Origin: Brachionus koreanus
Taxonomy: Eukaryota; Rotifera; Eurotatoria; Ploima; Brachionidae
Direction: 5' to 3'
Assembly: GCA_016987375.1 (NCBI GenBank)
Contig: PJRA01000048.1
Location: 2,250,440 to 2,314,439 of the forward strand
DNA length: 64,000 nucleotides
Within the stretch, counting starts at the first letter, position 1. The number at the start of each line of letters is the position of its first letter. The position numbers and the translations under genes were made by a program. The notes beneath the pieces are model-generated. The model did not search any database. It was given only the letters and a program-made list of their open reading frames with translations, and was not told the DNA's origin. Below are positions 23,152 to 51,700 of this stretch, in pieces.

Positions 23152-26100
23152 TTATAAAATAGAACAGACAGCAGTTTTGCCTTTCTTTCCACCTCCAAAG
23201 TCGAATTCTTGCCCGTTTATAGTGACAACAACTCCATCTTCATTATCATAATGTTGAGAGAATTTTTCTATTCAAAATAATTGTTAAAATTTGTTAAAGA
23301 AATATATTTTATGTTTAATTCGAAACCTTTTGACTTAGAGTAATCATCAAAAATTCGTTTAGCTTCTTGATCATTTGAACAATACAAAATTCTTTGGATA
23401 TAGCTGGCACCAATTGGTAGTCCTTCAGATATTTCCAATATTTTGTTTAAATTTACCTAAGTAATAAATATAAATAATTTTTTAGTTAAAAATTGAATAT
23501 CTTCAATATAAAAGATAAATTTATTTTAAAAGAATTCCCAAACATACGATTGTATTCTCAAGACGCATTGTTTTAATCTTGTTTAATTTCAATTCATCTC
23601 TCAATTTTTCAGATTCTGGATCAATCTAAAATTAAACTTCTTATTACTTTATCAACAAATTAATTGATTAAACGAACATTATTTGAAACTTTTCCAATTA
23701 GGTTATTTTGTGAATTTATTTTTTCTCTTTCAAAATATTCTTTAGTAGATATTTTGCTGTTATATTGCTCTGGACTAGGATGCTTTTGCTCTCCAAATAT
23801 TTGAATGTAAAAACATTGATTTAACAGAAAATTCAATATCTAAATTAAATAAATGATTTTTGTAATTAATTTATTCTCTTAAAAACCTCTTCTGTTGCCA
23901 TAAACGTAAAATTTTTGCTAAATTTGAAATCCGGTTTGTTTGTTCCTCTTATAGTGTTAGTCTTAATTTCTGTAGGTTCTTTGTACAATTTGAAAGAACA
24001 ATAGATATCCTTAGAACAATAGAATAATATAAAATAAAATTGAATTTAATAATTTTTTGTTTTTACTTCATAAATGGGATTGTAAATATTGGCAAGCCCA
24101 ATCTTGATCATAAAACTAATCGGTTTGTTTATCAAATCGGCTTTCGGATCGGATACCAGGTTACTACCAGCTTCTGAATATTCTTTCTCAGTGAACGGTT
24201 TTCCAGAAGCATTGCAGGGTAAAATTTCTATTTGAATAGTACCAGCTTCGTTACTTCTCAAATCAAGAATTTTAGTTTCTGTCACATTTGGTAACATGTA
24301 TGGCAAGGTTTTAGGAAAAATCATTGCTGTTCCTATTTGCGTTGGAGTATCTGGTGATTCATAAAATGGATCATATGACTTAAAAAAAGACATTTAAAAA
24401 AATTTAAGATAAATTAGGCACCGAATAGTAGACAGCTAATTAAATCAAGTGCAATTTTTTACGATTAAGATAAAAGCGATTTAAAAAATATAAAAACAAT
24501 TTAAGCTTATTTGGAAAACATAAATTTTTAAAAAAGCAATAAACACCTGTTTAGTATTGTTCTTTTTAATTAATAGAGGTGAAAAATTATTTTTTAATAG
24601 AGAAATTATTTAAAACAAAAAAAAATTATTTATACCTTAAACTTGTCTCGATTAATAACACCATCATCTTTGAAATCATTATACATTTCGGTCATATCTA
24701 CTTTTCTGTCTAAAAATTTGTCTTTTTTCCATAACCATTCTAAACCTGTGGCAAAATTTTTAACTGAAACAAACGCCTTAGAATAATTGTTAATCTATTA
24801 TGAATCACAATAATTTTTTTTGAATCTACCTTAACTTTTCCATCATATTCGCCTCTAGAAAAAATATTCTTTTAAAATTGAATATTAAAGAAAAAAAATT
24901 TTTAAATACCTTGCACTTGCTGAAACAGGAAGCGCAGTAAAAACAACTTTTTTGTCCAAAGCGATCGAAATAGCGTTTGCTTCTTCAATCATTGGCAACA
25001 AATCAATCAATTCAGCTTGACATTGCAACTGATCTGGAATATAAAATTCAAAATTAGATTTTTTTTTGTTTAATTCTAAATTAACCTTTAGTTAAGTGAG
25101 AATTGTTTTCTTTTGAAATAATGCCGGAAGCTTTTCCAATTTCATCTTGAGCCATCTCAAATGTATAAACCGGATCTTTGGCTGATGCTTTTGATGGATC
25201 AACAAATAAATAATATTGTGAGGCACCAAATACTGAAATATTTCTTATTTAATATTTTTTCAAATTAATCAAATGATAAAATACCAAGTCTATCAAGATG
25301 AACTAAATCAGTAGCATGGCTAAGAAGAATTCCATTATGCAAAATTTTAGAATCATTAAGTCTCTCAATGAAAAATTTTTTTTCATTCTTAGTGATGGTG
25401 CCATGCTCATCCAAAATTCTAAAGAAATGTTAAAATATTCAATAAGAAAAATAAGTAAATAAGAATACCCTATTCCTTTCAAACAAATTTCACAAGTACT
25501 CGAAAGTCCAATTTTTTTCTGTCCATCTCCATCTAACAATATTTTGATACTTCCAGAGAGAGAAGGATCCATGTTAATATTTGTAAGATGAGGAATTTTT
25601 TTGGCCTTCTCGAAAATAGCGGCTCTATCTGAATGTCCGGCCTATGAAAAATTTTAGGATAAAAATCAATTGCCAAAAGAGAATGTACCAAAGCTTTAGC
25701 CTCGGCCAATTTTTGTTCATAGGATTTTTGCATTTCTTCCATTTCTCTATCATTTTCTTCCAATTGTTTTCTCAATGCCTCTTCGTCAGCTAAAAAAAAT
25801 AAAGAAATAAGCTTATCAAAAAAAATAATTATAATTTAATTATTAAAAAGAAATATATTAACCATCGTCATCATCGCCATCTCCATTGCCTTTAAGTAAT
25901 GCAGGATCAATATTTCCACCTTCAAGAAGTTTTTTAAGTCTAGCATTTTCTTCTTTTAAGTCACGAATCAATTTTTCAGTTGGATCTTCATTTACAATTG
26001 CTTTTGTTTTTATTTGTTTAGCTCTATCAGCTAAAAAAAAAGATAAAAACATTTAAAAAAGGATAATTAAAAAAAAAAGAGATAAAAAATTTTACCATAT

Positions 26101-27691
26101 CTAAGAGTTGAAACAGATTCATCAAAATTAATATCTGCTGGACTAATTGCAGCAATCTAAATTCAAAATAATTAAAATAATAATTGAAATTTTCTAGTTA
26201 AAAAATATTGTTTGAATGTATTTACCATAACAGTTTTGGAATTTCCACCCAAAGCATTCATCAAAAGCTTGGTCAAAACTGAATCTCTGTAAGGAACTTA
26301 GTAAAAAATAAATTAAAACAAAAGAGAAATACAGGAAAGAAAATTAAGATACTTTACCTCTGACATTTTTACCAGCAGAATTATCAGCCAAAGCGCTAAT
26401 CACATTACCAAGTGAAGTTAATGACAAATTAATGGCAGCTCCTTCTTTCAATCGTTCACCAGTAGCACCAGTTGCATCAGCTCTTTCACTACCTGCCAAA
26501 TCGACCAAATTAATCAATGAAGATTTTGCCATTTCAGCACCAGCATCATTTTTATACTTTTGAATTAGATTTATTGTCACAATTGTGTGAGCTCTGCTGC
26601 TAGTTGCATTCATGTTTGTAGCAGCAATTGTTCTATTTGATGTGCCTTCATCCTTTCATTTAAAATTGCTTAAATAACTTTTGTTTTTTATTTTATAAAC
26701 GAAATTTACCATGAGTTTTGTTATATCGTCATAACTATCTACAAGAACTTTTTTTTGACCCTGTGCTTAAAAATTAATTGATTTTATTATTTTGTTAAAT
26801 TGATTCATTATTTTGATTTAAATAAAAAAAACTTTTTTTAACGATATCAAATTATATTAATGAAATAAATACCATAAAATCCATTTTTAGGATCTTGTCT
26901 AACTGGCAAACCAGATTTTCGACTTGCACCTGGTGCCAACAAATCACGCACAACTTCACTGTAAATCTCAAGCATACTAAAAGTTACCTTTATGGTAATT
27001 TTTTAAAAAATTTTTGACCAATTTTTACAAAAATTTTTTTGTCTTACTTCAATAGTTTTTCCAGATGCCTTAAGCGGTTCGGATTTTTTAAATATTTCTT
27101 CACATGTAATTGGTACAATTCCTTTATTTGGACCATAACCAACAACTGAATAACTTTTTCCAGAACCAGTTTGACCATAAGCAAATAATGTAGCATTATA
27201 GCCCTCCCACGCATTTTTTAATATTCCTTCGCCTAGATCTCCAAATACTTTTTTCTAAATTAAAGTTAAATAAATTTTTTCAAAATGTTAAAATATTTTA
27301 ATAAAAATTTAATATTTTTTAGTTTTTTTTTAATTCTTGAATCTTATTTAATCTTCCAGCATATATATACTAAATTAATTTTTTTTTAAAAATTAATAAC
27401 AAAATTTTACTTGATCTGCATAGTTCGGTTTTGTTGCAGTCAAATATCCATTTGCATCTTCTTTATAACCGTCATGACTCCTTAAAATATTTTAATAATT
27501 TTTTTTCTCTTCTTTTTAGGAGATTACCAATAAGAAAAGTCATAAGCATATTTTTTCTCTTCATTTGAACTTGGATCAGTAATTATTGTTTGATTGCCAG
27601 TCATGGATACAATTAATTTCGAGTTTGCATTTTTCTCACGACTGTTAAAAGGTCTTACTCTAACAGCTACTTTTAAGTTTTCTTCGGACAT
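23152..27691 (-). CDS. Kinesin-3 family motor, KIF28/KLP-6-like (minus copy)
   Basis: Predicted 990-residue plus-end-directed microtubule motor in 22 exons. Key exons in transcript order: 27691-27528, 27480-27411, 27254-27048, 26987-26873, 26765-26710, 26652-26358, 26296-26226, 26156-26096, 26030-25863, 25789-25689, 25641-25469, 25418-25285, 25232-25086, 25033-24910, 24854-24830, 24776-24636, 24378-24067, 24009-23887, 23839-23678, 23625-23548, 23456-23327, 23267-23152. The motor domain has the P-loop GQTGSGKS, switch I NATSSRAH and switch II DLAGSE. A charged coiled coil follows ([20 protein letters not shown]). Next is an FHA domain ([11 protein letters not shown]...[14 protein letters not shown]), then a long KIF28/KLP-6-like tail. 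It ends KTAVCSIL, a CaaX-type prenylation motif. It lies head to head with a second copy, 923 bases between start codons. The family assignment rests on the motor-FHA order and tail length. Confidence 0.9.
25689..27300 (-). repeat. Inverted repeat arm 1 (kinesin motor region)
   Basis: This segment of the minus-strand kinesin, from intron 2 to the end of exon 10, is almost identical, introns included, to 28934-30545 read on the plus strand. The two arms form a large inverted repeat of about 1.6 kb with a spacer of roughly 1.6 kb. Outside the arms the two genes differ clearly, in exons 1-2 and throughout the tail. Confidence 0.85.
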
Positions 27692-28614: not shown

Positions 28615-31600
28615 ATGTCTGAAGAAAATTTAAAAGTAGCTGTTAGAGTAAGACCTTTTAACAGTCGTGAGAAAAATGCAAACTCTAAACTGATTGTGGA
28701 AATGGCTGGTAACCAAACAGTCATTAGAGAACCAAATACAAATGAAGAAAAAAAATATGCATATGACTTTTCTTATTGGTAATGAAAAAATGATTGAAAA
28801 AAATTTTCTTAAATTCTTGATAAAAGGAGCTTTGATGGATTTAAAACTGAAAATGATGGATATCTTTCACCAACTAGTCCAAAATATGCAGATCAAGTAT
28901 TAAAAAAAATTTTTAAATTTTAAAATTTTTATAAAAATATTTTAGCATTTTGAAAAAATTTATTTAACTTTAAACTTAGAAAAAAGTATTTGGAGATCTA
29001 GGCGAAGGAATATTAAAAAATGCGTGGGAGGGCTATAATGCTACATTATTTGCTTATGGTCAAACTGGTTCTGGAAAAAGTTATTCAGTTGTTGGTTATG
29101 GTCCAAATAAAGGAATTGTACCAATTACATGTGAAGAAATATTTAAAAAATCCGAACCGCTTAAGGCATCTGGAAAAACTATTGAAGTAAGACAAAAAAA
29201 TTTTTGTAAAAATTGGTCAAAAATTTTTTAAAAAATTACCATAAAGGTAACTTTTAGTATGCTTGAGATTTACAGTGAAGTTGTGCGTGATTTGTTGGCA
29301 CCAGGTGCAAGTCGAAAATCTGGTTTGCCAGTTAGACAAGATCCTAAAAATGGATTTTATGGTATTTATTTCATTAATATAATTTGATATCGTTAAAAAA
29401 AGTTTTTTTTATTTAAATCAAAATAATGAATCAATTTAACAAAATAATAAAATCAATTAATTTTTAAGCACAGGGTCAAAAAAAAGTTCTTGTAGATAGT
29501 TATGACGATATAACAAAACTCATGGTAAATTTCGTTTATAAAATAAAAAACAAAAGTTATTTAAGCAATTTTAAATGAAAGGATGAAGGCACATCAAATA
29601 GAACAATTGCTGCTACAAACATGAATGCAACTAGCAGCAGAGCTCACACAATTGTGACAATAAATCTAATTCAAAAGTATAAAAATGATGCTGGTGCTGA
29701 AATGGCAAAATCTTCATTGATTAATTTGGTCGATTTGGCAGGTAGTGAAAGAGCTGATGCAACTGGTGCTACTGGTGAACGATTGAAAGAAGGAGCTGCC
29801 ATTAATTTGTCATTAACTTCACTTGGTAATGTGATTAGCGCTTTGGCTGATAATTCTGCTGGTAAAAATGTCAGAGGTAAAGTATCTTAATTTTCTTTCC
29901 TGTATTTCTCTTTTGTTTTAATTTATTTTTTACTAAGTTCCTTACAGAGATTCAGTTTTGACCAAGCTTTTGATGAATGCTTTGGGTGGAAATTCCAAAA
30001 CTGTTATGGTAAATACATTCAAACAATATTTTTTAACTAGAAAATTTCAATTATTATTTTAATTATTTTGAATTTAGATTGCTGCAATTAGTCCAGCAGA
30101 TATTAATTTTGATGAATCTGTTTCAACTCTTAGATATGGTAAAATTTTTATCTCTTTTTTTTTTAATTATCCTTTTTTAAATGTTTTTATCTTTTTTTTT
30201 AGCTGATAGAGCTAAACAAATAAAGACAAAAGCAATTGTAAATGAAGATCCAACTGAAAAATTGATTCGTGACTTAAAAGAAGAAAATGCTAGACTTAAA
30301 AAACTTCTTGAAGGTGGAAATATTGATCCTGCATTACTTAAAGGCAATGGAGATGGCGATGATGACGATGGTTAATATATTTCTTTTTAATAATTAAATT
30401 ATAATTATTTTTTTTGATAAGCTTATTTCTTTATTTTTTTTAGCTGACGAAGAGGCATTGAGAAAACAATTGGAAGAAAATGATAGAGAAATGGAAGAAA
30501 TGCAAAAATCCTATGAACAAAAATTGGCCGAGGCTAAAGCTTTAGTATTTTCTCTTTTTGTTATTTAATTTTTTTTTTGATTTTTACTTAATTATTACTT
30601 TTATAGACTGGAAATTTTGGTTCGAACAAACAGCACGAACTTGCTAAAACAATTCCACATTTACGAAATATTAATATGGATCCTTCTCTTTCTGGAACAA
30701 TTTTTCATTTAATTCAAGATGAAGGAGTTAAAAATATTGGCATTGCATCTGATTCTGATATCATTTTAAAAGGAATTTGTATTAACGATAAGCATGCTAC
30801 TATTACAAATACAGCTGGAACTTTTACCATTGAGCGATTAAATGAATCTAAGATATTATTAAATGGCAAACCTGTCATGACACCCACTCAGTTAAGTCAC
30901 AGGGACAGATTATTGTTTGGATCCTCTCAATATTATGTTTTTGTTGATCCATCCAAAGCCACTGCGAATGAACCCCCAATTACATTCGAGACTATGCAGG
31001 ATGAAATAGCCAATGCATCTGGCTTAATATCTAAAGAAAATAGTAATATGTCACGCGAAGAAATTCTGTGCCAATCTGAATTAATCGATTTGATTCCTCA
31101 CATTGAAGAAGCAAACGCTGTTTCGATTGCTTTAGATAAAAAAGTTATCTTTACAGCTTTACCAGTTTCAGCTGATGCTAGGGGTTCATATGATGGCAAG
31201 TTCAAAGTTTTTGTGCTAGTCAAAAATTTTTCTCTTGGTTTGGAATGGATTTGGTCAAAAGAAAAATTTATGGATAGAAAAGTTGATATAGTTGAAATTT
31301 TTAACGACTTCAAGGATGACGGTATAATTAATCAAGAAAAATTCAAGGTTCTTTTTTAACTAAAAGATTTTAATTAGAAATTTCATTTTTTTCATTTAAT
31401 TAGACTTATGATCCATTCCATGAATCCCCAGATACTTCTACATTGATCGGATCAGCAATGGTCTTTCCAAAAGCGTTTGCTTATATGCTTAAAAATAAAG
31501 ATGATTACAAAATTATTAGTTTGAAAAGCAAACAAGCTGGTTCGCTAAATGTTGAAATAGTACCATGCAATGGCCAGGGCAAGCCATTGAGTGAAGGAAT

Positions 31601-32565
31601 GCAGATTAACGATCCAAGAGTAGAATTGGTTAACAAAACCGTTACTTTCTTAATCAACATTTCAGAAATTAAGAATTTAGGATCAAGATTTGAGGCAATA
31701 AGATTAATTTTTATTTATCCTAAATATTTGGAAAAATAATTTTAATTTTTAGGACATTTACTGTCAATTTGAATTACCAGGTGATCAAACAGTTTATAAA
31801 ACAACTACCATTAAAGGTGGTAAAGACAATAATTTTAAATATTCAAAGCAATTTACTTTCACTGCAACAGAACAAGTAATATAATTTTAAGAATATTTTT
31901 TTGTCATTTTAAATTCTATTTAACTTTTAAATAGTTTCTTGATTTTATTTTGAACAAATGCTTGTATATTCAAATTTGGTCAGAACAAAAACATGCTAAA
32001 CCAGATCCAAAATTATCTAAAATCTCCACTAAGGAATACTTCCACAGTCAAAAGGAATTAGTTAACACAGCTGTAACAGGAAAAGTCGTCATAAATCACG
32101 TAAAAATTAATTATTTTTTTATTATCAATTTGATTAAATAAGTTTAATTTTAGTTAATGGACCCAGAAAAACAAAAAATTAAAAATGATTTGCATATAGC
32201 ATTGATTAATAATCAAAAAAATGAAACAATTATTGTATAAATTAATTTTAAATTTGAAACCGCTTCTAAATTTTTTTTTAAATAGAGAAATCTATACAGA
32301 TTAATGCATGCAGCTGGTACTTCACCAATTAGCAGTCAAACATTAAACAGTGTTATCAATGCCAAAAATGATAACGAAATAAGAGCAATTTTAGCTGAAT
32401 TTAAAGGAAATAGAAGTAATTATGATATTAAAATTTTTCAATTTTTCTAATTTTCTAAAATTATAAGAAGCTGAAGGTAGACCAACTAGTGCAAGCAGTT
32501 ACTCATCAATTGGAAGTAATTATAGAGGAGCTCGTAACAAGAGTTCAGCTTGTAATGTTCTTTAG
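28615..32565 (+). CDS. Kinesin-3 family motor, KIF28/KLP-6-like (plus copy)
   Basis: Predicted 978-residue paralogue of the minus-strand kinesin, in 17 exons: 28615-28778, 28827-28896, 28980-29186, 29247-29361, 29469-29524, 29582-29876, 29938-30008, 30078-30138, 30203-30370, 30444-30544, 30607-31347, 31404-31694, 31753-31875, 31935-32099, 32154-32234, 32286-32415, 32468-32565. The motor is nearly identical to the other copy ([22 protein letters not shown]). The FHA domain ([11 protein letters not shown]...[15 protein letters not shown]) and tail have diverged. Exon 11 (741 bases) replaces six exons of the minus copy (744 bases). Intron 12 would be GC-AG (31695-31752), where the minus copy has GT-AG. 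The C-terminus is SSACNVL, again a CaaX-type end with Leu. All phases agree. Expected role: microtubule transport in cilia or neurites, by analogy with C. elegans KLP-6. Confidence 0.9.
28934..30545 (+). repeat. Inverted repeat arm 2 (kinesin motor region)
   Basis: Partner of the arm at 25689-27300. Compared segments such as the intron 29525-29581 are identical base for base to their counterparts. The only differences I noticed are homopolymer lengths, a few bases at the intron 2 edge, and the last exon 10 codon (TTA versus TTG). Similarity stops at the intron 10 donor. Confidence 0.85.
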
Positions 32566-32711: not shown

Positions 32712-35700
32712 TCAAATTTCTTTACGCTGCACAATTGTTCTGTATCTGTAAGCACCAATATTTTTCTGACGCACCGACCCGTTTTCTGATCCAGGCTTCA
32801 TCATCATACTAGCTCGATTAAATTTATTACCACTTAATTTATTGCTGTTCGAGTATCTGGACATTTTAAAGTTGAGACTCAATCTAAAGGTTTTTGACAT
32901 GATACTGTAAAAAAATGGATTAAGCATGCTGCTTAAATATGTGAGAATGTGTGCAATTAATTTAAATACAAAAAATGCATCGCTTCGGAAAGGAAATTTG
33001 TCCCAAAATTTCATTGCAAGATAAATTGAGTGTATTGGAAGCCATGAAACACCGAAAAGAATGGTAACCGATCCTATCATGATAAGACTTTTTTGAATAT
33101 TTGTTGGTAGATTAGTTTCTGATTTAATCTAAAACAAAAATTTTATTTTATCTAAGTTAAACATTAAGATTTTTAATCTTACGCTATTTTTTCTTTTTGA
33201 CAATTTTATAATCATAATCATATAGCAAAAAATAATGGTAATTAATGGTAGTACATAAGAAATTAAAACAATAAAAAGTATATCAAGTTGGCCGATGCTA
33301 AGCTTAAAAAAATGAAAATCTATAATCTGGTTGATCAGTTCAAATGATGAGCAATAAGAAACATTTGAATAATTTGTTGAACTCATTTCCACACCTCTCA
33401 AAAAAACTTGGGGTATACTCAATATTATCGAAACTAAAAGTATAAAATTAAAATCAGCTTTTAGTAATAAAATAAAAATATTAATAATATTCTTAAGAAA
33501 AATTCCATTTTTAAAAGAACACATATTGTACAACTCTATTCAAAAGTTAATTTTTAATTTAGTTTAGTGTTGGGCTCTCTGATTTGCTTCTACTGGACCG
33601 TCTAAAATTGGTGTTAGCTGGTTTTATGACAGCATGAGTTTATTTAATCTTTAAACAAGAAAAAAAATTTTGGGTTTGGAGAATAACTAAGAAGTTTTTT
33701 CTTTTTGTCGGTCCATATCCCGATGTCAAACACTAATTTAGAAACTAAAAAAAATTATAATGTAATGAATGTTTAAAATTCTTTAATTAAAACTCCTGAA
33801 ATTCCGAGATTAATAGTTAGGATTTTTTATAAAACAATATTTAAATTTTTAATTTTTATGTTTTACTTTCAAATAGACCATTTATAAATTTATTTTTGAT
33901 TCCTAGCAAGTTTTGAGTTTTAGATTTATTCTGTCTAAAAAATTATTTTATACAAATTAAAATGATATATAAACTATGTGATCTGAGGTAAAATTATGTA
34001 ACTTTGCGTTAATTTATCAAAATTTTACGTATACAGTTTTACCGTATTATAAGTAAATGGGATATTTTTTTTTCATGTTTTAAAAAGTGAAAATTTTTTA
34101 GATTCAATTTTTTTTTAAAAAACGAAAAAAAATGGCTTTTTTTAGTTCAACAAATTTTTAGGTAAAAATTAATTTCCTAATTTTTTACATTGTTTTTCTG
34201 TTTTATTATCATTTTACAAAGTAAGAAAAATGAAATAAGAGTCTTAAATAATTAAAACATTATTCAAAAAATATAGACAGATATTACATACAAAATGATG
34301 TAAGCTTTCTTTTTTCCTCTCATTTTATTTTGCTAGAATTCGAGATAAGATATGGGAAGCAAAGTTGTGACGAGACGTTAACTTGATTTTTTAAATCTAA
34401 GAAAAAGTTAAGTTTATTTTGTCTAATTTAAAAATCGAAAAAATAAAACACAAAAAATTTTAAAATCTATCAAAGTTTACATCATGAATTTCCTAGAAAA
34501 AACAGTTCAATCAATTGATTTTCTACGTGTTTTTTTAACTTACTACCTCGTTCCTCGCAATCTTTAACTTGGAGCAAACTTGAACAAAATATTAAAACTA
34601 GAACCAAAACTTCTCATTGAGATCTTTAATCCTTAATCGTCTAAAGGAAATATTCCATTTATAGGTTTCAAATTTCAAAGTAAGGTGTCTATTTGATAAA
34701 TGATTAAGATAACACTTGATTGAATAGAGGGAAATAATATTAATAAACGAATAAATTTACTACATCTAAAATAAATGTTATTTTTTAATTTTTGAATTTA
34801 AATTTTAAAAAAATATAACGAGCTTATCCCTTTTAAAGTAATTCTGAATACTTATTAATTTCTCGTATCATTTAATATTACTAAAATTTTAATTTCCCTT
34901 TTTGTTCTGAACTATTTTGAGTTCCCCAGGTGTCCTGATTAAAATAAGCAAATATTCTCAAAATTTCTAAATTTTAATTATATTAAAACACTTACCAATC
35001 CATATTATAACACTTATCATGATGGCTTTATTTTTGCTTCTGTGGATAATTGCGTTTAATGGAAAAGTAATTAGGTAAAATCGATCTAAATATAGAAAAT
35101 TAATTTTTAAAAAATTGTTTAAAATTAAAAATGCTTACCAAAAGTCATAGCCATTAAAGTAAGACATGTAATGAACACACTTAACTAAAAAAAAATTTTT
35201 TTTTAAAATAAAATTAATAAAATTAGAACATTTTAAGAATAAATGATTTTTTAAAAATTTTTTAAAATCAAAAATTAAAATTAAAGTGCTGGGCGCATTG
35301 TAGAGCTTTCGGCTGGTTAATAGGCTGTGATTCTTTGTAGATAAATGCTTCTTGATTAATACATTTTTTGAATAATATAACTAGACTTAGTTTTAAAATA
35401 CTTCAATTAAAATATTTTATGAATATTTAACCACAATTTTAGAAAATTGATACCCAAAGAAGAAATAGTTGATAAATCTTGTAGATTTTTCTTTAAAAAA
35501 CTGGATCGATAAATGTAGCATAATAATTTGCATTATTAAGAATACTTCAATCGAATCTGGTAAGAATAAAAATTTGATCTTTCAATATTCATTTTATTTT
35601 TAAACTAATGGATATAACTTCAAGTCTCCTAAATTCTATAAAGTATCAATTTGTAGTTGTAGATTCATTGGTCTAGTTTAGCCGAAAGTCACAATGCTTC

Positions 35701-48747: not shown

Positions 48748-51700
48748 CTATAAAAATAACATAAATTAATATAACAAAAACTAAACTATTTGCGTTAAAT
48801 TTTGTGGCTAAAATTTAGACCGAGATAAACGAGTCTAATTTATAGACAAATACTAAATTCAAAATGAATAACAATAAACAAATATCAGCTATTATATAAT
48901 CACACAAAGTTATGAATTGGTTATTATTTTGGCATGTATAAACAGCCCTAAAACATTTGGAACATTTAAGTTCAACACAATTCTTTTTTGGACTACTAGG
49001 ACAGCTATTTAGGCTTGTGAGTGAAATGGATCTAAACGGTTTTATGTGTTTGACTTGGTCAAATATTTCACTGTTAGATAGTAATTCTTGACTTTTCTGC
49101 TTCACTTTGACATTAATCATGCGGTGCAATTTGCTCAATAGGTTTTCAAGCTTTTTCCTAGACTTAGATGAATACGATGTAGACATCAAGTCCGTATATG
49201 TAGTTAACTCCTCCTATTTTAGATAAAATTTAAAAATTTTTTTGTATTTTTTTAAATTTTGAAGAACATTTAACTAAACATTTAACAATTTTAGCCATTT
49301 AGAGCTTTTCCAAAAATATTTACCTCAGGAAGACCAATTCTTCGACATGCATCTATGAAATTTTCAACATTTTTTCTACATTTTGCCAACGACAATTTTG
49401 GCTTGATTAAAAAAAAAATTATTTAGTAAAAAAATTTTTTTTATAAATTAAATACCATAGCTAGAGAAGGAACATGAATAATTTGTACGGCTCTTGGAAA
49501 TATTTGATTTACTAAATGACAAAGAATAACTCCATCCGAAAGCGCTACACCAATTTCGTCTACACTACTCGGTAATTGAATTTTAAGCTTTTGTTCTATG
49601 GTTTTTTTGAGCATTTCGATTTGTTTTTGATCTTCCTGAATTTGTAACAAGTGCCGCCTCATAGTAAAAGCCGAATTCAAAGGCTCGCCATTGTTTAAAT
49701 CGTCTCTTGGCACCCAGACTTGTTGTTGAGTTTGATTTTGGTACAAATAAGATTTGTATTTATCTTCATCACATTCCATTTGAAAATATTTTTCATTTTG
49801 GTTTTCCATAATGTAAGAACTTGGTATTTCATCTTGACTGGAGTCTTCGACAAAATTGTTAACTAGATAAGCTTTTGTGGTCATTTTTGCATTGTCATTC
49901 ACTTTTTTGTATTTAGAACAATCATTTAAACTTTAAATATTAAGTAAAAAAGCAATTAAAAATAAATACTATGGGATTTATAAACCAAGCTTACAAATTT
50001 TTTTGAACTAAATTATTATTTGATATTAAATCGTAGTCATTATTTGTTAATCGTTTGTTTAATCCGGAATTTAGACTCATTTTATTCGACTTGTCAACCC
50101 AAGTTTGTTGCTTTGTTGATTCATGGTTATGCTGTTGGCAGTTTTCGGCTAAGTCGTCATCATTGGTAATTATTAATTGATTTTCCGAATTGGAAATTGT
50201 TGCACGATTTATTTTAACAAAATTTTGCTGATATTGAGATGATTTTAGAGATATTAGCTCATGTATTGAGACAATTTTAGAATTAGTGGTATCGGGTATT
50301 TTATGAGTCTTAATGGATGATTTGTTTGGTATTATCAAGCCAACTCCAGAAATTGAAGAAGAACAAGAAGATGATGATGATTTAGTTGATGATGGTGAAG
50401 ATGTAATTTGCCCTTCCATGAAGTCACCAGTCTCTGAATCAGTTCTTATATTCTTCAAGAGGAAATAAATATAAATAAATCTAAAATTTTATAAATATCA
50501 TTTTTATTACTTGATTGATATTAAGCATTTGAAAGTTGTCGACTAAATACTGATTATTGTTTGTGGGAGTGGTGGTAGAAGAGGCTGAATTAGCTTGATT
50601 CGGGGATAAATCAATCAGAGATTGTTTTAGATTTTTATTATTGGAATTAAAAACAGGAGTTGATATTTGAGATGCCAAAGAAGATGATGAAACAGATGAT
50701 GAAGATGAGGTAGATGAACTGGATACGGTGGACATGGACGACGAGGGAGCTGACGAAGAGTTAAATTTTTTGCTAAGACTATTCCGCACCATCAGTCCAA
50801 GGCCTGTTGTACAGCTTAATCGCTGGTTGTGTGTACTCAAATTGTAATTAAAGCTATTTAATTGTGTATTTATTTCATATTCGGTAAGAATTCCGCGTTT
50901 TTTCTCTTCTTTAATTGCCTCGTTCAAGAGGTACTTCATTATGTGAAGCAAACCTTTGGTGCAAATATGTGCCGGCGGCAATTCTAAAGGATTATGATCG
51001 ACAACTAAGTCTATTAGTGTGACCATTTCGCGAAAGCAAAGCGGAAGTTTACTCAGCCTATTTGCCGAACAATCAAAACTGACCAATTTTAAATGCGATA
51101 TTTCTTTAGGAAGTTCGACTAGAAGATTGCGTCGGACATTCAGCGCCCTCAATGCAATCATATCACCAATTTGTACGGGCAAATGGGTTATTTCATTACA
51201 ACTTACATCCTTTGCACATAAAAATTAAATAGATGTTTGTTTATTTTTTATTTATTTATAAAATTAGATACCAATTGTATTAGTCTATCTAGGCGACCGA
51301 TTTCCTCTGGCAGCGAAACCAATTTATTGTTGTTTATGGTCAAAACTTCCAACGATGATAAATTACACAAACATGGAGGTATATATGATAAGTTATTTGA
51401 ATTTAAGTCGAGATATTTTAAGCATTTTAACTGATAAATCCCGATTTCGGGTATGCTTCGGATTAGATTCGAGTAAATTGTCAATTTTTCCAATGAATAA
51501 AATGAGCATAATTCTTTTGGAAACTCAGTGAGATGATTCTTTGACAAATCTTTTTAAAAAAAAATGATTTAATAGATATTAAACAGTGCGACTTAATAAT
51601 CAAAAATTTTATTTTGTTTTATTTAATTTAAGAACAAATTTTAATATTTTTTCTTTATAATGGAAATTTTGAAAAAAAAAAAAAGCAAAATCATTTATTC

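Follow-up and report, generated by a model that had tools for sequence, protein, structure and literature searches.

The window analyzed here is a 64,000-nucleotide stretch of the Brachionus koreanus genome (83 Mb, 92 contigs) and carries two kinesin genes in a head-to-head arrangement. These genes are referred to as the minus copy and the plus copy. Their spliced models, built by hand, and the features that matter for their arrangement are as follows.

23152..27691, minus strand: minus-copy KIF28/KLP-6-type kinesin-3 gene, 22 coding exons, 990 aa (spliced model, Pfam domains)
28615..32565, plus strand: plus-copy KIF28/KLP-6-type kinesin-3 gene, 17 coding exons, 978 aa (spliced model, phmmer to 7wrg)
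23152..23267, minus strand: terminal coding exon (minus copy), translated as ...GGGKKGKTAVCSIL-stop; acceptor ttttgaatag/AAAAA, phase 1
32468..32565, plus strand: terminal coding exon (plus copy), translated as ...RGARNKSSACNVL-stop; phase 1
26034..27344, minus strand: inverted-repeat arm with much of the motor domain, introns included, 96% complementary to 28890-30200 over 1311 nt
28890..30200, plus strand: inverted-repeat arm in the plus copy, pairing with 26034..27344

The introns of the minus copy are all GT-AG, and those of the plus copy are GT-AG apart from one GC donor. The plus copy seems to have this donor at 31694-31695 (TTGAG/gcaataag), where the minus copy has GT. At 130 nt, the penultimate coding exon has the same length in the two copies, a match that supports both splice models. 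Two further features were observed on the minus strand of the window. Just downstream of the plus kinesin, at 32712-33539, are frames resembling part of a seven-helix receptor (GPCR), and at 49441-51553 there are leucine-rich repeats and a calponin-homology-like stretch, frames that we take to resemble an LRCH-type protein.

Both window genes are KIF28/KLP-6-type kinesin-3 genes. Residues 5-923 of the plus copy align with 7wrg, the full-length structure of Caenorhabditis elegans KLP-6 (phmmer, E 3e-217). The FHA region falls within this alignment, which continues through the MBS/MATH region to residue 923. In the minus copy, Pfam identifies a kinesin motor (PF00225, residues 11-353, E 1.6e-99) and a KIF1B-type stalk (PF12423, 27.6 bits against a cut-off of 22.2). 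The window genes have the motor, MBS and MATH layout of KLP-6/KIF28P and probably its FHA domain, for which the minus copy gives a marginal match (PF00498, E 0.0011, with 19.7 bits where the cut-off is 20.7). In trees of KIF28 rows, built without an outgroup from other kinesin-3 families, they group with Brachionus, Seison and other KIF28 rows. Two more kinesin-3-like loci, L032 and L033, are present in the same genome.

In other kinesin-3 families, the C-terminus typically carries a PH, CAP-Gly or PX domain, and the PH domain of UNC-104/KIF1A binds lipid. Pfam scans of four KIF28 proteins (the minus copy, P0001, P0034 and P0058) found none of these three domains at E values as high as 0.1, a difference from KIF1A/UNC-104, which has a PH domain. 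In three of these proteins, weak C2 matches fall within the MATH region, above the cut-off only in P0058 (22.5 against 22), and leave room for another membrane contact.

The two copies differ in how alike their halves are. Residues 78-440 are 99.2% identical, the motor halves being near-identical with introns included, whereas the tails (residues 445-900) are only 56.9% identical. Further paired stretches of the two copies lie at 25643-26092 and 30141-30590. Among the matches listed, the closest proteins to both are from Brachionus calyciflorus. Their tails pair by copy, the plus copy with P0001 (73.3%) and the minus copy with P0002 (73.0%), which suggests that the kinesin genes duplicated before the lineage parted from B. 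calyciflorus. In the window pair, the motor halves look homogenized, putatively through gene conversion.

Despite their divergent tails, both proteins end in the same kind of motif.

23155..23166, minus strand: CaaX box CSIL of the minus copy, followed by the stop at 23152-23154; conserved in the family
32551..32562, plus strand: CaaX box CNVL of the plus copy, followed by the stop at 32563-32565; the ortholog P0001 ends CNIL

A preliminary description of this DNA had proposed that the minus kinesin ends KTAVCSIL-stop and the plus copy SSACNVL-stop, with the box kept although the neighboring tail has diverged. All of this is borne out. In the frame set by the last exon, positions 23175-23152 give T-A-V-C-S-I-L-stop, 32542-32565 in the last exon of the plus copy read as proposed, and the last 30 residues align poorly between the copies except at the very end. 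CSIL and CNVL each have Cys at -4, an aliphatic residue at -2 and a permitted X, and each is C-terminal. The box is also present in P0001, P0003, P0004, P0007 and the Seison protein P0043. P0004 (984 aa, 3,173-base contig), P0007 (979 aa, 2,993-base contig) and P0003 (827 aa without the N-terminus, 2,577-base contig) all end CNIL, and their contigs are too short for introns, which gives transcript-like support for the CaaX end in relatives. In the structure model of P0001 (mean pLDDT 74.5, pTM 0.42), a helical stretch at 878-944 is followed by residues 945-980 with pLDDT below 50. This predicted disorder of the tail suggests that the box could reach both enzyme and membrane.

Relatives were collected by profile searches from two alignments, A1 and A2 (the best 120 of 7,973 proteins and the best 120 of 7,991), together with a tail search, giving 175 distinct proteins. 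The tail-only search returned 6 relatives, and the family was reached through the profile searches. The proposed test of the box was its conservation in other species. Among the matches listed, 131 of the 175 KIF28/KLP-6 relatives end Cys-x-aliphatic-X, in a set where boxed rows may be slightly favored, the query alignments having contained boxed C-termini. With nematodes set aside, the count is 131 of 156. The last residue of the 131 is Gln in 66, Leu in 43, Met in 17, Ile in 2, and Ser, Phe and Val in 1 each.

Within the same matches, Cys occupies offset -4 in 131 of 175 proteins; at each of the remaining offsets among the final 60, the count is between 0 and 5. The pattern C.[ILVM][LMQ] is terminal in 126 of 175 and is absent from the 100 residues before the end (0 times in 16,975 positions). 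By these counts, the box is not due to chance. When the window pair is added, Cys is at -4 in 133 of 177 proteins; in every one of these, position -2 is occupied by I, L, V or M (background 0.197) and X is limited to Q, L, M, I, S, F and V. Among the matches listed, the Cys has an information content of 4.3 bits and the residue three before it one of 4.2 bits, against 0.4-1.3 bits at offsets 9-30. That residue, -3 from the Cys, is Ser in 129 of the 131 boxed relatives. Clustering was done to allow for close relatives, and clusters with a CaaX member number 76 of 103, 47 of 60 and 13 of 16 at 80, 70 and 60% identity, again among the matches listed. At least one CaaX protein is found for 74 of the 86 non-nematode labels in these matches (mostly species, with three EukProt tags), and 34 of 43 unlabeled rows have the box. 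Vertebrate KIF28 was not noticed by name among them. Judged by these ends, the putative prenylation box is a widespread KIF28 feature and is not confined to the rotifer lineage. The argument of the preliminary description that conservation of the box points to function is supported at the level of sequence, with lipid attachment as its predicted consequence.

The box is missing in 44 of the 175 relatives listed: 19 nematode proteins, 3 from the branch of a third rotifer paralog, and 22 others. It is therefore dispensable in some lineages. None of the 19 nematode KLP-6 proteins listed has it, those of C. brenneri and C. nigoni included, which end in Lys-rich tails. For C. elegans KLP-6, the aligned part reaches chain residue 921 of 928, and the very end of the protein falls outside it. 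The third rotifer paralog branch lacks the box in all three of its listed members, P0006 (partial), P0056 and P0107. The window genome has a third KIF28-type gene of its own, L031 (G000:C4:2843000-2849500, minus strand), which is diverged, ends ...LVNKMNDKD and has no box; the end of B. calyciflorus P0056, also without one, resembles it. Beside this third gene, on the plus strand at 428-889 of L031, MTYRYGKR units recur in what is likely a neuropeptide precursor, presumably RYamide-like.

By a reading of their ends, eight mollusc or annelid-side proteins stop just past a conserved stretch like ...IP.EKG, and three crustacean proteins, at least two of them named isoforms, have no box. Eleven more are boxless: P0002, P0005, P0062, P0074, P0091, P0112, P0144, P0147, P0163, P0166 and P0169. 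Several of these are partial or doubtful, and two are on the sponge branch. In the rotifer branch, Seison included, 5 of the 10 listed rows have the box. P0002, annotated in B. calyciflorus and corresponding to the minus copy, has an end that is not CaaX. Because this end reads like the hydrophobic leader of a second gene, we think that the P0002 model is probably fused to the gene downstream.

The last residue of the box falls into two classes, Gln on the one hand and Leu or Met on the other. The trees omitted the C-terminal part, their alignment columns ending at residue 760 of the plus copy, and were made from KIF28/KLP-6 rows of the matches listed, unrooted and without an outgroup. On a FastTree tree of 178 rows, Gln versus Leu/Met-type ends take 4 changes (Styela left out), and presence versus absence of the box takes 20. 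On an IQ-TREE tree of 47 rows hand-picked from the 178, the Gln ends are all set apart from the others by one branch (SH-aLRT 100), and 2 changes suffice for the class, one of which is the tunicate Styela (CTIS, scored Leu/Met). The window genes are on the Leu/Met side of this split and nematode KLP-6 is on the Gln side. Both classes are held by 18 labels, among them coral, nemertean, brachiopod, annelid, molluscs, echinoderms, hemichordates and amphioxus. The class of the last residue tracks a deep split in the gene tree, probably the product of an ancient duplication; as the trees have no outgroup, we infer where the root lies, that a duplication took place and in which direction the class changed. 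On the Gln side there is also the EukProt protein P0100 (CNIQ), with the tag Nk52_evm. This tag belongs to the ichthyosporean Chromosphaera perkinsii (PMC6981761, in excerpt), and P0100 as a C. perkinsii protein would take the box back before animals.

The identity of X is the basis for assigning the lipid. Under the CaaX rule, as given in an excerpt of PMC9857354, Leu at X specifies geranylgeranyl, and Met or Gln specifies farnesyl. X is Leu in both copies, so the suggested geranylgeranyl type agrees with the rule, and the genome has a gene for the beta subunit of GGTase-I. Three prenyltransferase beta loci are present; at one of these (C25), the best match is GGTase-I (E 5.7e-58), as against GGTase-II (8.9e-30) and FTase (4.6e-20). 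Genes for ICMT, an Rce1-like protease and a prenyltransferase alpha subunit are present as well. Taken together, the CaaX boxes of the window are, with high probability, working prenylation signals kept by selection on KIF28/KLP-6-type motors.

Four other accounts of these ends were weighed against that reading. The box Cys may be S-palmitoylated or free instead of prenylated, since a single C-terminal Cys could be acylated and prenylation is predicted from sequence. This is very unlikely. An aliphatic residue at -2 in 133 of 133 proteins and an X limited to seven residues are constraints of the prenyltransferase type that palmitoylation does not need, and the class of X follows the gene tree. 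The C-terminus could also act as a PDZ-binding ligand in which the Cys is incidental. Class I PDZ ligands have the pattern S/T-x-hydrophobic, and CSIL and several CTIL, CTIM and CSIM ends fit it. Among the matches listed, however, the Cys is fixed in 131 of 131 boxed proteins while the residue after it varies (S35, V30, T29, I16, N9, others), and the commonest last residue, Gln (66 of 131), is not a PDZ ligand end, which makes this account slightly less likely still.

That the box is an ancestral leftover with little present function in rotifers would agree with the persistence of the genes without it in nematodes and in the third rotifer paralog branch. The adjoining tail has diverged, yet the box is kept in the window pair, in P0001, P0003, P0004 and P0007 and in Seison P0043, and we give this explanation as little credence as palmitoylation. 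Misprediction of the last exon, with transcripts ending elsewhere, for example through retention of the last intron (minus ...SKSKGFELNIKYISLTNFNNYFE, plus ...KGNRSNYDIKIFQFF), is the least probable of the four and in our view extremely so. The CaaX end is carried by P0003, P0004 and P0007, on contigs too short for introns, and exon lengths and phases match between the copies. On the other side, both last introns run into in-frame stops, and 11 mollusc, annelid-side or crustacean proteins end near the same point without a box, by a reading of their ends; boxless isoforms may thus be real.

With prenylation as the preferred reading, the proposed pathway begins with GGTase-I, which would add geranylgeranyl to the Cys of the box where X is Leu. 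RCE1 would then trim and ICMT would methylate the prenylated end. The prenyl lipid would most likely anchor the PH-less KIF28 motor to membrane cargo, and the conservation of the box suggests that KIF28 is held to membranes in this way. In KIF28, the lipid would take the part that the PH domain plays in UNC-104/KIF1A, such that motors concentrate on the membrane, dimerize and move. UNC-104 is thought to be activated through concentration and dimerization at PIP2 domains of the cargo membrane (PMC10945585, in excerpt), and KIF1A/UNC-104 resembles the proposed case as a kinesin-3 thought to be activated by concentration on its cargo membrane. The UNC-104/KIF1A PH domain is named in the title of a reference cited in the available part of PMC12646758.

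Prenylated kinesins are known outside this family. The preliminary description had given CENP-E as the kinesin for which prenylation is known. CENP-E is indeed farnesylated but is not the sole case, because KinesinCaaX of Trypanosoma brucei is farnesylated too (PMC3206815, in excerpt). CENP-E, a kinesin-7, shares with the window genes a C-terminal CaaX box that is prenylated in CENP-E (same excerpt); it differs in belonging to another kinesin family, in being mitotic and in carrying farnesyl, where the window KIF28 is predicted to be of the geranylgeranyl type. KinesinCaaX likewise has a farnesylated CaaX box (CVIM), the deletion of which results in a more diffuse localization, but it is found in kinetoplastids only and is not KIF28 (excerpt of PMC3206815). 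The nearest studied relative, nematode KLP-6, differs in having the box in 0 of 19 proteins among the matches listed and in its place on the Gln side of the tree, against the Leu/Met side for the window genes.

The preliminary description knew of no report of KIF28/KLP-6 prenylation, and none was found in the open literature either, outside of which most subscription papers lie. In the passages available, co-mentions of KIF28 with prenylation or CaaX concern INF2 and Rab6A, with no link. The full texts of the two KLP-6 papers that were checked do not mention prenylation, farnesylation or CaaX, and a full-text term check of a review of C. elegans kinesins (PMC12646758) returned no mention of prenylation. 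The prenylation papers that were checked do not mention KIF or kinesin, though CENPE was tested in one. From the excerpts available, KLP-6 is called invertebrate specific (PMC10945585), human KIF28P is classed as a pseudogene (PMC12646758), and work on KLP6/KIF28P in mitochondrial transport is cited (PMC8077471).

The residues before the box point to a possible carrier. In excerpts of PMC5512577 and PMC9857354, the rule for high-affinity PDE6-delta cargo and ciliary sorting includes Ser at -3 of the prenylated Cys, and Ser-to-Lys mutants of two PDE6-delta cargos still entered cilia (PMC9857354). Loci of the PF05351 family (PDE6-delta or UNC119) are present in the genome. The near-invariant Ser at -3 fits the rule, and prenylated KIF28 may thus be a PDE6-delta cargo. 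For the window pair the fit is partial: position -3 is Ser in the plus copy and Thr in the minus copy, and position -1, where a high-affinity cargo would have a hydrophobic residue, is Ala in the plus copy and Val in the minus copy. Ala is at -1 in 81 of the 131 boxed relatives listed and in 57 of the 66 of the Gln class. INPP5E is similar to most boxed KIF28 proteins in having Ser at -3 of its prenylated Cys; it differs in being a phosphatase with Ile at -1, where KIF28 has mostly Ala and is a predicted cargo. KLP-6 works in cilia of C. elegans (PMC12646758, in excerpt), and this role together with the Ser rule makes ciliary loading a testable lead; the entry of the Ser-to-Lys mutants into cilia, the Thr of the minus copy and the prevalence of Ala at -1 count against it. 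As a more speculative step, PDE6-delta would carry prenylated KIF28 and ARL3 would release the motor at cilia.

A broader reading is offered tentatively, and we lean somewhat against it. KIF28 would be an ancient class of lipid-anchored kinesins with a two-class prenyl code, in which a duplication before the cnidarian-bilaterian split gave Leu/Met-box and Gln-box paralogs that largely kept their class. Ser at -3 would make both PDE6-delta/ARL3 cargo, and the motor would be delivered to cilia as a prenylated passenger, there carrying receptors such as polycystins. In this scheme, loss of the box from nematode KLP-6 and the classing of the human gene as a pseudogene would explain why the feature had escaped attention.

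For the family, the implications are conditional on the box being prenylated. Nematode KLP-6, the studied form, may be derived in cargo binding, and caution is called for in taking it as a guide. If the reading is true, kinesin-3 gains another hold on membranes, with a covalent lipid in the place of a PH or PX domain, and the prenyl tail would suggest how the little-studied KIF28 finds its cargo.
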